A stretch of DNA of 64,000 nucleotides from Methanohalophilus sp. RSK (GTDB lineage Archaea > Halobacteriota > Methanosarcinia > Methanosarcinales > Methanosarcinaceae), in NCBI RefSeq assembly GCF_003722075.1, contig NZ_RDSK01000009.1, positions 62,001 through 126,000 of the forward strand. Reading direction: 5' to 3'. Numbering within the stretch: the first letter of the stretch is position 1; each line of letters starts with the position of its first letter. The translations under genes were made by a program, and so were the position numbers. Below, one piece after another: positions 43,051-48,021 of this stretch. Under the pieces are notes generated by a model. That model was not told the origin of the DNA and ran no database searches. It was given only the letters and a program-made list of their open reading frames with translations.

Positions 43051-43416
43051 TCACATTCCTTCTTCAAACTGGAATTTGTGCCTGTTAATTTTCATTATCT
43101 TTACAAGTGATAACATTACAGGTACTTCGACCAGTACACCTACTACAGTTGCCAGTGTTGCTCCTGAAGTTGCACCAAACAGTATTAATGTAGTGGCTAC
43201 TGCCAGTTCAAAGAAGTTACTTGGTGCAATAAATGTAGAAGGTGCAGCTTCATAGAAGGGGATTTTCAGCTTTTTTGCACCATCATAGCTGATTGCAAAT
43301 ATAAAATATGTTTGCACTATGATAGGTATAGCAATCAAGGCAATATGGAGAGGATATTTGATTATCATTTCACCCTGAAGAGTAAAAATCAAGACCAGGG
43401 TTATTAGGAGTCCCAT
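43051..43416 (-). pseudogene. Truncated ACR3-type arsenite transporter (C-terminal third only)
   Basis: 121 residues that align with the last third of the intact ACR3 protein at 46734-47918: [46 protein letters not shown] and a similar end. The N-terminal two thirds, including the essential Cys region, are missing. Upstream codons continue the homology weakly (AWWYLYL) until an in-frame TAA near 43450. An ATG at 43416 could still be translated, but three membrane helices would not make a transporter. It is best read as a decayed paralogue. Confidence 0.8.
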
Positions 43417-43590
43417 TAAATATAAATACCACCATGCCCCATGTTTTTATGGAGGTATGCCAAGATAACTTGAAATATTTAAGCGATGCTCTATGTATTA
43501 ATGCAGGGTCTTATCCTTAAAGGCCTGGTTAAATCTAGGGTGCAGAGTATTTTGATTGTTTTGAGCATATCTTCTAGGTAGGGGTATTAA

Positions 43591-45066
43591 ATGAAAGAGA
43601 TATATGACAAAATGGCAATGGAAGCCATGAACGCACAGAAGGCAGTTGTAAGTACTATAAATAAGAAGCGAGGCACTGCCTTTAAAGTAGAGGATGCAAA
43701 ACCATACGTAGATGCAGTCAATAAAATGCAGGCCAAAGGTGAACAGTGCAAAGAAGTATTCGATCTGCACATCAATTCAGTTAACACGCATTATGAGGTC
43801 CTCTCCGGGTTAACCGACACTGTAAGGCCGGAAGACGATCCTTATGTAGAACATTATCAGACGCCCCCCGTATTGGAGATATTGTATGAGGAAGACCCAG
43901 CCTTCAGGGAGTCAGTGGAAAAGTTCATTGACATGATTGGCAGGTCAGAGGCACTTATAGGCAAAGAATCCATGAGAAGATATGCAGGCTTCTATGGTCC
44001 TACATGTGTGGTAGACTTTGCCTTTTCTCCAGGAAGCACAAGTAATGTTGTTAACAGAATACTGCAGGAAACAGACATTCCGGTAGATCACAAACGCGCA
44101 ATCCTTTCTTCCAAGTCATGGGGAATGAACACATCATACGGAATAGGTGCCAAGTTCCAGATGGCAATTGAGAACGGCAAGACTCCTGATGAAGCTGTTA
44201 AAGAAGAAATTGAGATGCTCCAGATGGTCTATGATACTCCCATGGCTGCACAGATCAAGTTAATGGATGAAGCTGGCCACACGTCTTTTGATGTGAAGAA
44301 ATACATGAACCAGTATAAGCAGAGAATGAAGCCAACTATAAAAGCTGCAATGGATGCTGATGTTTTCTACGGTAATATCGTCACAGTTCCTGCATATAGT
44401 GTGGGAGATGTTGCTCATCACATATCGCAGTCGATGTTCAACATGACAAAAGATGATGTCGTAATGGCAGTTATCAATGCCGTGACAGACGTCATGGACG
44501 GGACCATGAAGAATGCCATGGGCAATTTCAAAAATGAGTACTCACCGCTGACCATTGCAACAGATGCAGCCGCAGGAGCAACTACGAAATTACTCTGGAT
44601 GGATGGATTCACAACTATGATGGTTCTCGACCTGCTAGTCAAGAGATTCCATAACTTTGTGCTCACCAATCCAACAAGAGGTGCCGCAGCTGAACTTCAC
44701 AACGTTGACTTTATGGACTTGATCGAAAAGGGTGAACGTATCATTGATCACAAGCCAAGGGGAATGGGCGGAATGATCCAGGGCATACCAATTGACTTTA
44801 GTCCGATCGAGAAGAACGAGGTCCTCAACAACCCTCAGCGCTACACATATCCTGCCTGTGCCATCACCGTTCGTTTCTCGGCACTTATGCGTCTGGCTGA
44901 TTTCCCATGCATGCTGACAAGTGAGCCCGTAACTGCTACAATGCTGACCAACATTATAGCTCTGCACAAGACCGAACCACATTCACCTGCACGTACCTGC
45001 AAGTTCTGTGCAGCAAACTACTTCGATTACAAGTGCAAGGACTGTAACTGGACGGAGGCAGTTTGA
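43591..45066 (+). CDS. DUF2193-like methanogen protein with C-terminal zinc ribbon
   Basis: 491 residues, most likely the DUF2193 family of methanogen proteins with no known function; the family assignment is from memory and should be checked. It is soluble and alpha-helical, with repeated Met-rich segments, and ends in a zinc ribbon CKFC-x8-CKDC. No cofactor motif is recognised. The start ATG is behind AGGTAGGGGT. An 8-bp hairpin and then aqpM follow on the same strand, so the protein and aquaporin may be linked. Codon use and length look like a well expressed native gene. Confidence 0.8.
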   Translation: MKEIYDKMAMEAMNAQKAVVSTINKKRGTAFKVEDAKPYVDAVNKMQAKGEQCKEVFDLHINSVNTHYEVLSGLTDTVRPEDDPYVEHYQTPPVLEILYEEDPAFRESVEKFIDMIGRSEALIGKESMRRYAGFYGPTCVVDFAFSPGSTSNVVNRILQETDIPVDHKRAILSSKSWGMNTSYGIGAKFQMAIENGKTPDEAVKEEIEMLQMVYDTPMAAQIKLMDEAGHTSFDVKKYMNQYKQRMKPTIKAAMDADVFYGNIVTVPAYSVGDVAHHISQSMFNMTKDDVVMAVINAVTDVMDGTMKNAMGNFKNEYSPLTIATDAAAGATTKLLWMDGFTTMMVLDLLVKRFHNFVLTNPTRGAAAELHNVDFMDLIEKGERIIDHKPRGMGGMIQGIPIDFSPIEKNEVLNNPQRYTYPACAITVRFSALMRLADFPCMLTSEPVTATMLTNIIALHKTEPHSPARTCKFCAANYFDYKCKDCNWTEAV

Positions 45067-45073
45067 TCACAGA

Positions 45074-45100
45074 TGTGCCTCGATGAGGCACATTTTGTTT
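45074..45100 (+). terminator. Hairpin between the DUF2193-like gene and aqpM
   Basis: TGTGCCTC (45074-45081) pairs perfectly with GAGGCACA (45085-45092) around a 3-base loop, followed by TTTTGTTTT. It lies between two same-strand genes only 50 bases apart, so it may act as a partial terminator or processing site that sets different levels for the two. Confidence 0.6.
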
Positions 45101-45116
45101 TCAGGCAGGAGGTTTT

Positions 45117-45866
45117 ATGTCAGAAGTAAGTCTGTTTAAAAAATCCATCGCAGAATTGATAGGGACTTATGTACTGGTTTTCCTGGGAACAGGTTCAGTT
45201 GTGACAACTGTCCTGCTGACACAAGGGGATACTTTGATTCCTAGCAATACTTTCAATATAGGAATTGATATCGCTGCATGGTTTGCCATAGGAATTTCAT
45301 TCGGAATTGCTGTATTGGCAATGATCTATGCTTTCGGGCATATTTCGGGAACGCACATCAATCCGGCAGTCAGCATTGCGCTGTGGGCTACAAAGCGCAT
45401 GAAAACTTCGGATATGGTCAGTTATATTGTAGCCCAGCTCATAGGTGCAAGTCTTGCATCCTTCACCATTGTGGGCATTCTTGGTTCGAGGGCCGTTGCA
45501 AGCGGCCTTGGCGCAACTGCCATGTTAGGCGGTCTGGGCTATGGGCAAGCAATATTATGTGAAGCTGTAGCAACATTCTTCCTGATGCTTACCATAATGG
45601 GAACTGTTGTGGATAAAAGGGCTCCAGGGGGATTTGCAGGTCTTGCCATAGGTCTTGTGGTTGCTGCGGATGTCACTGTAGTAGGTAATATAACGGGTTC
45701 ATCCCTGAATCCAGCTCGTACCTTTGGTCCATATATTGCAGACTTTCTGTTAGGCGGGCAAAATCTGTGGTGGCAATACCCAATATACCTGATCGGACCT
45801 ATCATCGGAGCACTTGTTGCAGCGCTAATCTATGATTATGTGTCGGATGTTAAAAAAGTGTCTTGA
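45117..45866 (+). CDS. aqpM: Aquaporin (MIP family)
   Basis: 249 residues, six membrane helices and the two MIP half-helix motifs HINPAVS and SLNPART. It is of the AqpM type known from methanogens, which conducts water and, in some cases, glycerol or other small neutral molecules. The ATG at 45117 has a strong GGCAGGAGGT site. It directly follows the DUF2193-like gene, and a hairpin terminator follows. In a salt-adapted cell it may help volume control; coupling to the upstream enzyme-like protein instead hints at a small-solute role. Confidence 0.93.
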   Translation: MSEVSLFKKSIAELIGTYVLVFLGTGSVVTTVLLTQGDTLIPSNTFNIGIDIAAWFAIGISFGIAVLAMIYAFGHISGTHINPAVSIALWATKRMKTSDMVSYIVAQLIGASLASFTIVGILGSRAVASGLGATAMLGGLGYGQAILCEAVATFFLMLTIMGTVVDKRAPGGFAGLAIGLVVAADVTVVGNITGSSLNPARTFGPYIADFLLGGQNLWWQYPIYLIGPIIGALVAALIYDYVSDVKKVS

Positions 45867-46426
45867 GAAGATACTTTCTTCCCTTTTTATCAAATAACCC
45901 CAGTTTGACAGTTTCTACTCTATCTTGAAGAGAATGTCTTCTCTTTCAACCCAAAATTTTCATTTTTTTTGTCAGGAAAAGCTATTTGACAGTTCAAACA
46001 ATTTCATGTGAAAAACTCCGATTTCATCGGTTTTCTTTAAAATGGATGCAATTTTCAGGAATCTTGGCCTGAATTTACTCGCTGAACCCTTATGTTCATA
46101 AGAATAATGCTCATCTGTCAAATTCTTTGTCCAAAAAATGGGCAAAAATCAGAAAAAACACAATCCAATGACTTATGTGATACTGTCAAATCAATGGGGC
46201 AAAAAATGGATAAAATTATAAAAACAAGCATGGAAGAAAGAAAAGATGCTAGCGAACGACCAGAAGAAAAAAGATAAACATAGAGATTAGAATAGAACCT
46301 AAAAAGAGAGACATTCAGTTGATTAAAAATAAAACTGTCAAAGTTGGGTTACAATATATTCACATAGTATTGTTTTAAAACCAAAAAAATTACAAATCAA
46401 ATTTTAAAATATTAGATGTTGATTGG
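45867..46426. other. 560-base noncoding region with repeated TTTGACAG motifs
   Basis: No convincing gene. The motif TTTGACAG occurs at 45904 and 45985 on the plus strand and as its reverse complement CTGTCAAA at 46115, 46183 and 46335. Three of these extend to the exact 10-mer TTTGACAGTT or its complement. Spacing is irregular (roughly 70-150 bases) and flanks are not conserved. A second small hairpin with a T-run lies at 46018-46038 (CCGAT-TTC-ATCGG). A 61-codon frame at 46092-46277 lacks a ribosome-binding site and is not called. Confidence 0.5.
45925..45970 (+). terminator. Hairpin plus T-tract terminator after aqpM
   Basis: TTGAAGAGAA (45925-45934) pairs with TTCTCTTTCAA (45939-45949), a 10-bp stem with one bulge and a TGTC loop, followed by a T-rich stretch including eight T residues (45963-45970). 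Confidence 0.65.
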
Positions 46427-46509: not shown

Positions 46510-46733
46510 ACACTGGTTTTGAAGTTAAGGATAATAATTATCCTGCAAGCAAAATATTGCAACGTCTAAATAACATGATTTTTTATAAATCTATCGCAGG
46601 AAATGTGGAAACTTTTGTGATTTTGTGCATATGGAATCCATTTCAATATTTATTGAAACAGATATATTGATATAGATAGAACGCGATTTAACAATTATTG
46701 AAATGCATTATTATGGCAACAGAGGTCTTATAA

Positions 46734-47918
46734 ATGGAAGATAAATCCTGCATTACAAAAGAAGCAAAAGGTCTTGGTTTCTTTGAAAGATACCTGACCC
46801 TGTGGGTAGGACTATGCATTGTTGCCGGTATCCTGCTTGGCAGGTTCGCCCCCGGAGTTGCAATATACCTTGATAGTCTTGCTATTTATTCCAACGGTGC
46901 CCCCGTAATCTCGATCCCGATAGCAATCTGTTTGTTCTTCATGATGTATCCTATCATGGTGAAAATCGATTTCGATGAAGTACTCAAAGCCGGGAAGAAT
47001 TTCAAACCCGTCGGCCTGACACTTTTCATAAACTGGGCTGTCAAACCTTTCACTATGTATGCAATATCCCTGTTCTTCCTCGGCGGCCTTTTTTTGCATT
47101 TCATTGGCCCGGAAGCAGTGGATCTAATCAAGATGCCTCTTGGACTAAACCTGCCTGTGGGTGCAACCTATGGTGAAGGTACGGTAGTGCTTGAAAATGG
47201 GGTGAAAATGCTTGAGGTACCCCTCTGGCGCAGTTATTTTGCAGGAACTATCCTGCTTGGTATTGCACCCTGTACCGCAATGGTGCTTGTCTGGGGCCAC
47301 CTGGCCAGAGGCAATGACGGCCACACACTGGTCATGGTCGCAATCAATTCACTTGCAATGCTACTACTCTATGGCCCACTTGGAGGCTATCTTTTGGGCA
47401 TAGGCAGTTTTCCAGTCCCATGGGAAGCCCTTGCTCTCTCGGTTGGCATATATGTCGCCCTGCCACTTATTGCAGGCTACCTGTCACGCAAGTTCATAAT
47501 GAGGACAAAAGGAGAGGAATGGTTCAATACCAATTTCCTCCACCTGCTGACTCCGATAACCATCACTGCACTGCTCATTACACTGGTCCTCCTGTTCAGT
47601 TACAAGGGTGACATGATCGTAGCACAGCCCCTGACTATCCTGTGGATAGCAGTACCACTGATTATCCAGACGTGTGTGATTTTTGCCCTGGGATACGTGG
47701 TCTCAAAAGGAATCGGTCTTACCTATGAAAATGCTGCCCCAACGGCAATGATAGGAGCATCCAATCACTTCGAGGTAGCCATTGCAACAGCGACCATATT
47801 GTTTGGAATATCCTCCGGAGCTGCCCTTGCAACGGTCGTAGGAGTATTGATAGAGGTGCCGGTAATGCTGATGCTGGTAAAGATATGCCTGCGTACAAAG
47901 GGCTGGTTTAGGGGCTGA
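46734..47918 (+). CDS. ACR3-type arsenite efflux transporter
   Basis: 394-residue membrane protein of the ACR3/bile acid:sodium symporter superfamily with about ten helices. The conserved functional Cys lies in [14 protein letters not shown] (about residue 180). The chain is longer than the usual 350 or so because of a segment of about 40 residues between the fourth and fifth helices (around 122-162). It exports arsenite or antimonite. The ATG follows AGAGGTC. No arsR, arsA or arsC lies beside it. A decayed paralogue is 3 kb to the left. Confidence 0.93.
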
Positions 47919-48021
47919 AAAGCCCACATTTTCCTTTTTAGTGATAGCAGGAACACCTCAATACATCATACAAAACCTATTTTTGCAATAAGTTCCAAGT
48001 TCCATATACAGAGGTGGTTTC

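Follow-up and report, generated by a model that had tools for sequence, protein, structure and literature searches.

What is a protein of no assigned function doing directly before an aquaporin gene? The question is raised by two genes in a 64,000-nt stretch of Methanohalophilus sp. RSK DNA (the window; contig NZ_RDSK01000009.1, positions 62,001 to 126,000), whose features are collected in Table 1. In the profile search, the upstream product matched PF09959 (DUF2193), a family with no assigned function, over profile positions 1-498 of 498 with 842 bits against a cut-off of 25, and is a full-length member. The downstream ORF, encoding 249 aa, matched the MIP family PF00230 with 162.6 bits. Each is the single match to its family in the 1.97-Mb assembly, and the genes lie on the same strand with 50 nt between the DUF2193 stop and the MIP start. 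These data agree with the first-pass annotation, which had described a DUF2193-like, zinc-ribbon-ending protein of 491 residues encoded 50 bases upstream of aqpM; indeed, the C-terminus CKFCAANYFDYKCKDCNW has the pattern CX2C-X8-CX2C, which makes the term zinc-ribbon-like fair. Cys470, 473 and 485 are invariant in a 15-sequence alignment of DUF2193, and the C-terminal Cys/His motif suggests a bound metal; the DUF2193 Cys cluster has been proposed to bind Fe-S, according to the accessible part of PMC9431491. Among the best 80 of 292 stretches, the closest named relative comes from a Methanohalophilus MAG (95% identity).

Table 1. Positions in the window of the gene pair and of the features associated with it.
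Feature	Position	Strand	Evidence
DUF2193 protein (PF09959), 491 aa, clade 1, proposed C1-loading enzyme	43591..45066	+	842 bits, full profile length
C-terminal Cys motif (Cys470, 473, 482, 485), zinc-ribbon-like	44998..45045	+	sequence
Hairpin, 9-bp stem, 3-nt loop, T-rich tail	45073..45093	+	fold z-score, compensatory base changes among the 11 gaps
AqpM-type aquaporin (PF00230), filter residues F/V/S/R	45117..45866	+	profile match, PDB relatives, filter alignment
Segment missing at the corresponding site in four congeners; left end inside ACR3 gene	43415..46400		flank comparison
Block at 90% DNA identity with another Methanohalophilus genome (L114/L130)	43498..45892	+	blastn
ACR3 arsenite-efflux gene, 3' end fragment	43051-43416	-	cut where the pair segment begins

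The two genes had been read as one unit, with a survey of their co-occurrence set beforehand as the refuting test, and in that survey the pair recurs. After identical genes were collapsed, 138 distinct clade-1 DUF2193 genes remained, 132 with enough downstream sequence, and 126 of the 132 are followed directly, on the same strand, by a MIP gene; the six without one are L106, L135, L137, L138, L169 and L189. Pfam describes the DUF2193 family as archaeal, yet the survey yielded 11 testable bacterial genes, and 9 of these have MIP directly downstream. Two loci with short downstream sequence, L190 and L209, were left out of the count and carry MIP just upstream of DUF2193 in divergent orientation. 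In a phylum sample of 294 genomes (PF09959 matches in 85, MIP in 107), MIP was present in 77 of the 79 clade-1 genomes and in 30 of those lacking clade 1 (Fisher 5e-43, with no phylogenetic correction). M. acetivorans, in the control panel, has DUF2193 and no MIP, so the link is strong, not absolute. The 80 named loci taken from genome contigs are the best 80 of 292 confirmed stretches and are biased toward close relatives of the window protein. The DUF2193-AqpM pairing is a deeply conserved unit spanning two domains. No report of it was found in the literature searched, outside which lay most subscription papers and preprints, so that an earlier mention is possible, and the sources searched state no link of PF09959 to AqpM or H4MPT. 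In addition, archaeal DUF2193 is often adjoined by an HTH_10 regulator (cluster c3, 40 loci; the two members tested are from L046 and L112), which is divergent from it in 27 cases and on the same strand in 10 (redundant set). In a Methanolobus vulcani locus (L134, 4793-5722), the gene divergent from DUF2193 encodes an MscS-type mechanosensitive channel.

The term two-gene unit describes the window, where the 50-nt gap contains neither an ORF nor the DUF2180 pattern, but not most other archaea sampled, in which the order is DUF2193-DUF2180-AqpM. The DUF2180 pattern was detected in 112 of 117 loci with a gap of at least 130 nt (redundant set), two of which were confirmed as PF09947, and was not found in the 32 short-gap loci. 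The genome studied here encodes DUF2180 elsewhere, as two tandem paralogues (L210, 1501-1966; contig C9 near 290000) divergent from mer, the methylene-H4MPT reductase gene (TIGR03555, 554 bits). In L257 (2996-3939), a DUF2180 gene immediately precedes one for an AqpM-type channel, and the 6.5 kb read contains no DUF2193. An AhpD-like gene follows the tandem paralogues. In the literature searched, DUF2193 appeared in a single paper and DUF2180 in none.

Between the two genes of the window, an 8-bp perfect stem with a T-rich tail had been noted. The hairpin and its tail were recovered, but the stem is 9 bp long, pairing 45073-45081 with 45085-45093 ahead of the T-rich run. The 62-nt region around it folds with z = -4.3, and 0 of 200 shuffles were equally good. 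Four terminator-like patterns were found in the region, no excess over shuffles (mean 3.1, sd 1.8), so that the terminator pattern by itself is not significant; its significance comes from conservation. Across 11 homologous gaps, each 49-50 nt long (the window and 10 relatives, from Methanohalophilus and Methanolobus), 99% of cells pair, against at most 67% in shifted registers. Two of the nine stem pairs changed on both sides, a number matched by 36 of 500 shuffles, while the covariation score was reached by 0 of 500. Hairpins of different sequence occur in most other gaps below 130 nt, bacteria included, a count made without shuffle control. At the gathering threshold, Rfam matched only two tRNAs in the whole window. 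The intergenic element thus has the stable conserved stem and following T-rich run of a terminator or processing hairpin. Its role is probably to uncouple expression of DUF2193 and AqpM, and by setting the two genes' expression apart it would let the soluble enzyme be made in excess over the channel.

Structure prediction, recommended in the first-pass annotation as a route to an active site, led to no significant PDB match. Two full-length AlphaFold2 models of DUF2193 (pLDDT 83 and 85; pTM 0.87 and 0.88) are nearly all-helical, and neither gave a Foldseek PDB match at E <= 0.001 when searched as a whole chain, a search in which a partial match could be missed. The top Foldseek rows are mostly helical membrane proteins at a TM of about 0.12, which carries no meaning, and a second look at the first model with VIA gave a best Z of 4.2. 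Searching the PDB by sequence, with the single protein and with a 58-sequence profile, also returned nothing significant for DUF2193. The window protein and its bacterial relatives are 61-65% identical, with polar residues invariant at dozens of positions, a pattern suggestive of an enzyme whose site is elaborate.

For the channel, the solved proteins nearest to the window MIP in the PDB sequence search were AqpM structures (3ne2 from Archaeoglobus; 2evu/2f2b from M. marburgensis; E ~1e-74), and it resembles them in its two NPA motifs and its F/(I or V)/S/R filter. At the four filter positions that mark AqpM (Phe62, Ile187, Ser196, Arg202) the window has F, V, S and R; Val for Ile at position 187, a conservative variant, is the one difference. 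All 148 linked channels (redundant set) have two NPA motifs and an AqpM-type filter with Phe62 and Arg202; at position 187, 142 carry Ile and 6, the window among them, carry Val. Twenty unlinked MIPs, two of them extra copies in clade-1 genomes and the others from 18 of the 30 genomes that have MIP but not clade 1, have varied filters: eight F-H, one H-H, one W-G, five with Thr, Ser or Cys at position 62, and five F-I. The AqpM filter is thus present in every linked channel (148 of 148) but also outside that set (5 of 20 unlinked channels). The accessible part of PMC6912568 gives the physiological role of AqpM as "none identified", and that of PMC3287591 describes a channel that is narrow at the filter (radius ~1.4 Å) and, citing earlier work, does not transport H2S. 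Such a filter is predicted to suit formaldehyde better than methanol or methanediol. In Methanocalculus at 25 MPa under CO2 limitation, AqpM rose 4.2-fold and an AFOR gene 2.1-fold (accessible part of PMC12727201), which fits an aldehyde or CO2.

The metabolic setting is clearest in bacteria, where a sigma54 activator comes first, followed by DUF2193 and then, in 9 of 11 loci, MIP; the activator cluster lies upstream in all 11 (one member, in L193, was tested). After MIP, L193 encodes a beta-RFAP synthase (TIGR00144, over cut-off) and, further on, a flavoprotein of the AfpA/dihydromethanopterin-reductase kind, a dihydropteroate-synthase-like protein and DUF447. The beta-RFAP synthase cluster occurs in 9 of the 11 fetched bacterial loci (two members tested; L144 and L154 in this count are the same MAG). 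It lies ~15 kb upstream on the contig in L159, and L149 has only ATP-grasp-cluster and HisA-cluster neighbors. In the longer stretch L226-L227, the genes beyond these encode Mpt_N (MtdB type), ATP-grasp, a molybdopterin-binding FwdD-like protein, two ORFs without Pfam match at the FwdB position, an FwdA-type amidohydrolase, FTR, an FwdC-type GXGXG protein, MCH, RimK, CitG, 4-HFC-P synthase, an amino-acid kinase and ATP-grasp, and then hydantoinase-like, HisA-like and PabB/PabC-type proteins, GTP cyclohydrolase I and FdhD. Mch was detected in 7 of 10 bacterial DUF2193 genomes and gave no match in the other three, and Fae was found in 0 of the 10. In Bacillota the pair stands at the head of an operon that encodes an apparently complete tetrahydromethanopterin (H4MPT)/methanofuran C1 pathway, and no Fae was found in these genomes. 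H4MPT genes in Firmicutes are already known (accessible part of PMC5020050), and a text search of that source found no mention of a DUF or an aquaporin. In similar text searches, PMC9768040 (DCMF metaproteomics) did not mention aquaporin, methanopterin or formaldehyde, and PMC9012536 (ANME genomics) did not mention DUF2193 and had its sole "aquaporin" within a reference title. One Peptococcaceae MAG has two copies of the DUF2193-MIP-H4MPT locus (L144 and L154) and two Mch genes.

In a 94-sequence tree, all 11 bacterial copies fall into a single clade (support 0.995) amid archaeal sequences; the five clade-2 sequences form no single outgroup, and the root was set on one of them. In the Bathyarchaeota locus L209, genes for a molybdopterin subunit, FwdA, FwdC and an MtdB-type protein precede divergent MIP and DUF2193 genes, a different gene order with the same partners as in the bacterial operon. 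Clade-2 DUF2193 proteins are 34-40% identical to the window protein (those aligned) and have no MIP beside them in 11 of 11 testable loci. Of the 14 distinct clade-2 loci, 11 have an MtrH-family gene immediately before DUF2193 and 3 have an AFOR-cluster gene there; a few of these neighbors were tested and the rest assigned by clustering. Both clades meet within 8 kb in L041 (6101-13994), with clade 1 and MIP on one side, MtrH and then clade 2 on the other, and an AFOR gene at 102-1784. The H4MPT-linked C1 setting shared by both clades, across two domains and in varied gene orders, argues for C1 metabolism rather than osmoregulation, and we consider it quite probable that the pair belongs to H4MPT-linked C1 metabolism.

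What the pair would do there can be stated more tentatively. A MIP partner implies a small uncharged solute, for which a neutral C1 compound is the simplest fit; the small neutral solute suggested in the first-pass annotation was right in direction. AqpM would pass such a compound across the membrane, most likely formaldehyde, with methanol second and CO2 third, and DUF2193, cytoplasmic and probably metal-dependent, would convert it into an H4MPT-bound C1 unit, the carrier in this methanogen being tetrahydrosarcinapterin. The unit could then enter Mtd/Mch/Ftr/Fwd for oxidation and detoxification or Mer/Mtr/Mcr for methanogenesis. The pair has the same design as operons of the glpF-glpK type, in which a MIP channel is encoded with the enzyme that traps its solute. 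It differs from them in its channel subfamily, in its unrelated partner and in a setting of C1 compounds instead of glycerol. We favor formaldehyde because the bacterial pathway starts at methylene-H4MPT with no Fae found and because AFOR precedes some clade-2 genes. From the observed genomic link we infer an enzymatic role for DUF2193, its use of H4MPT and the identity of the solute; C1 entry with formaldehyde as the solute is a reading that we put forward tentatively.

In its proposed role of transferring formaldehyde onto H4MPT, DUF2193 would resemble Fae (PF08714). By sequence it is not a Fae, the two being unrelated and ~490 versus ~160 aa long, and PF09959 was the sole family in the window protein at E <= 0.001; nevertheless, it may work like one. 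A stand-alone Fae and an HxlR-cluster regulator lie within ~4 kb of the pair in three genomes of the genus Methanolobus, which are related and therefore provide weak evidence. HxlR is formaldehyde-responsive in Bacillus. No replacement of Fae by DUF2193 was found in archaea, where 84 of 85 DUF2193 genomes have Fae or a Fae fusion (by eye), and this counts against C1 entry; the anti-correlation between the two families that a pure substitute would show was not found there. Also counted against it are the missing fold match, the lack of Mch in three bacterial genomes and of MIP in M. acetivorans and beside six clade-1 genes, and the sole published expression lead for DUF2193, Mvol_0354, which was more abundant on FeS2 (accessible part of PMC9431491). 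The tandem DUF2180 genes divergent from mer count in its favor. In its fullest form, the proposal is that DUF2193 would be a fold-novel H4MPT-dependent C1-loading enzyme replacing Fae in anaerobic bacteria, with AqpM, an orphan aquaporin subfamily, as its dedicated channel for formaldehyde or methanol, the two forming with DUF2180 an undescribed C1-entry module common to Archaea and Bacillota; we hold this version with still more reserve.

The best-surviving alternative keeps the same module and takes methanol as the solute, DUF2193 being a new methanol-oxidizing or methanol-activating enzyme that feeds formaldehyde or methylene-H4MPT. No alcohol dehydrogenase family was found among the bacterial operon genes tested, the pair in L112 has an F420-type FrhB/FdhB gene as a neighbor, and methylotrophs such as Methanolobus are frequent hosts in the best 80 of 292 stretches, observations that all suit methanol. 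However, many carriers in the same 80 are hydrogenotrophic or aceticlastic methanogens or Archaeoglobus, and methanogens handle methanol through MtaABC; we regard this alternative as unlikely. Another possibility, which we rate as quite unlikely, is CO2 supply to formylmethanofuran dehydrogenase: AqpM would conduct CO2, and DUF2193 would handle it, for instance as a carbonic anhydrase of a new kind or as a CO2 donor. CO2 passes lipid membranes readily, and MtrH and AFOR beside clade 2 would be left unexplained. A CO2 role would account for the Fwd genes beside the pair in Bathyarchaeota and within the bacterial operon; CO2 has been suggested as an AqpM solute (accessible part of PMC3287591), and the rise of AqpM under CO2 limitation in PMC12727201 agrees with it.

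Three further explanations were weighed. DUF2193 might clean or repair H4MPT bearing unwanted aldehyde adducts, with AqpM letting the released small aldehyde out, since acetaldehyde condenses spontaneously with H4MPT (accessible part of PMC13192316) and an AFOR-cluster gene directly precedes clade 2 in some loci. Such repair would not call for a channel gene leading a C1 operon, however, and judging from the accessible part of PMC3287591 acetaldehyde would be large for the AqpM filter; we regard this as very unlikely. That DUF2193 handles iron or sulfide while AqpM passes H2S would match the FeS2 response of Mvol_0354 and the proposed Fe-S site in PMC9431491, but it conflicts with the reported failure of AqpM to transport H2S (PMC3287591) and with recurring neighbors that are C1 genes, and is highly improbable. 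Water flux and osmotic adaptation, the link suggested in the first-pass annotation, is least credible, for although the host genus is halophilic, a water role has been proposed for a Methanohalophilus aquaporin (accessible part of PMC6491703) and some Methanolobus loci have an MscS-type gene beside the pair, the filter His of the AqpZ type is absent from all 148 linked channels (redundant set), and the pair is kept in non-halophilic and bacterial hosts, where it sits with H4MPT/methanofuran C1 genes across domains.

For AqpM, which has solved structures and an unsettled solute (accessible parts of PMC3287591 and PMC6912568), gene order thus names a partner and a metabolic setting, and the pairing makes the question of its solute directly testable. 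DUF2193 and DUF2180, conserved families without function, are placed in H4MPT-linked C1 metabolism, and the Bacillota H4MPT pathway gains a candidate entry step where Fae was not found.

The local history of the pair points to joint movement. In three congeners (L238, L240 and L241; 91-94% identical in the left flank), the alignment stops at 43414 and resumes at ~46400 at a tRNA-Leu, and in the fourth (L239) only 79 nt separate the points matching 43006 and 46419. At the site of the segment that holds the pair, the congeners thus carry different sequence. The block shared with the other Methanohalophilus genome consists of the two genes and short flanks. DUF2193 occurs in 3 of 8 genomes of the genus and sits at a different place in the L241 genome. 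The flank breaks, the shared block and the patchy presence together indicate that the two genes travel together. A full ACR3 gene (46734-47918) lies to the right of the pair in a stretch adjoining the tRNA-Leu (46604-47945), which is absent from the four congeners and is a second local insertion. The ACR3 fragment and the full ACR3 gene flanking the pair had suggested AqpM as an arsenite channel; this was rejected, the left ACR3 being the cut end of a native gene and the right one lying in the region absent from the congeners, so that both look like local history. A viral origin of DUF2193 was dropped as well, since a scan of viral contigs contained no relatives and PHROGs gave no match. The window MIP (45117-45866), by comparison, matches the viral family phrog_20813 (E 1.4e-37), and some prokaryotic viruses therefore appear to carry MIP channels.
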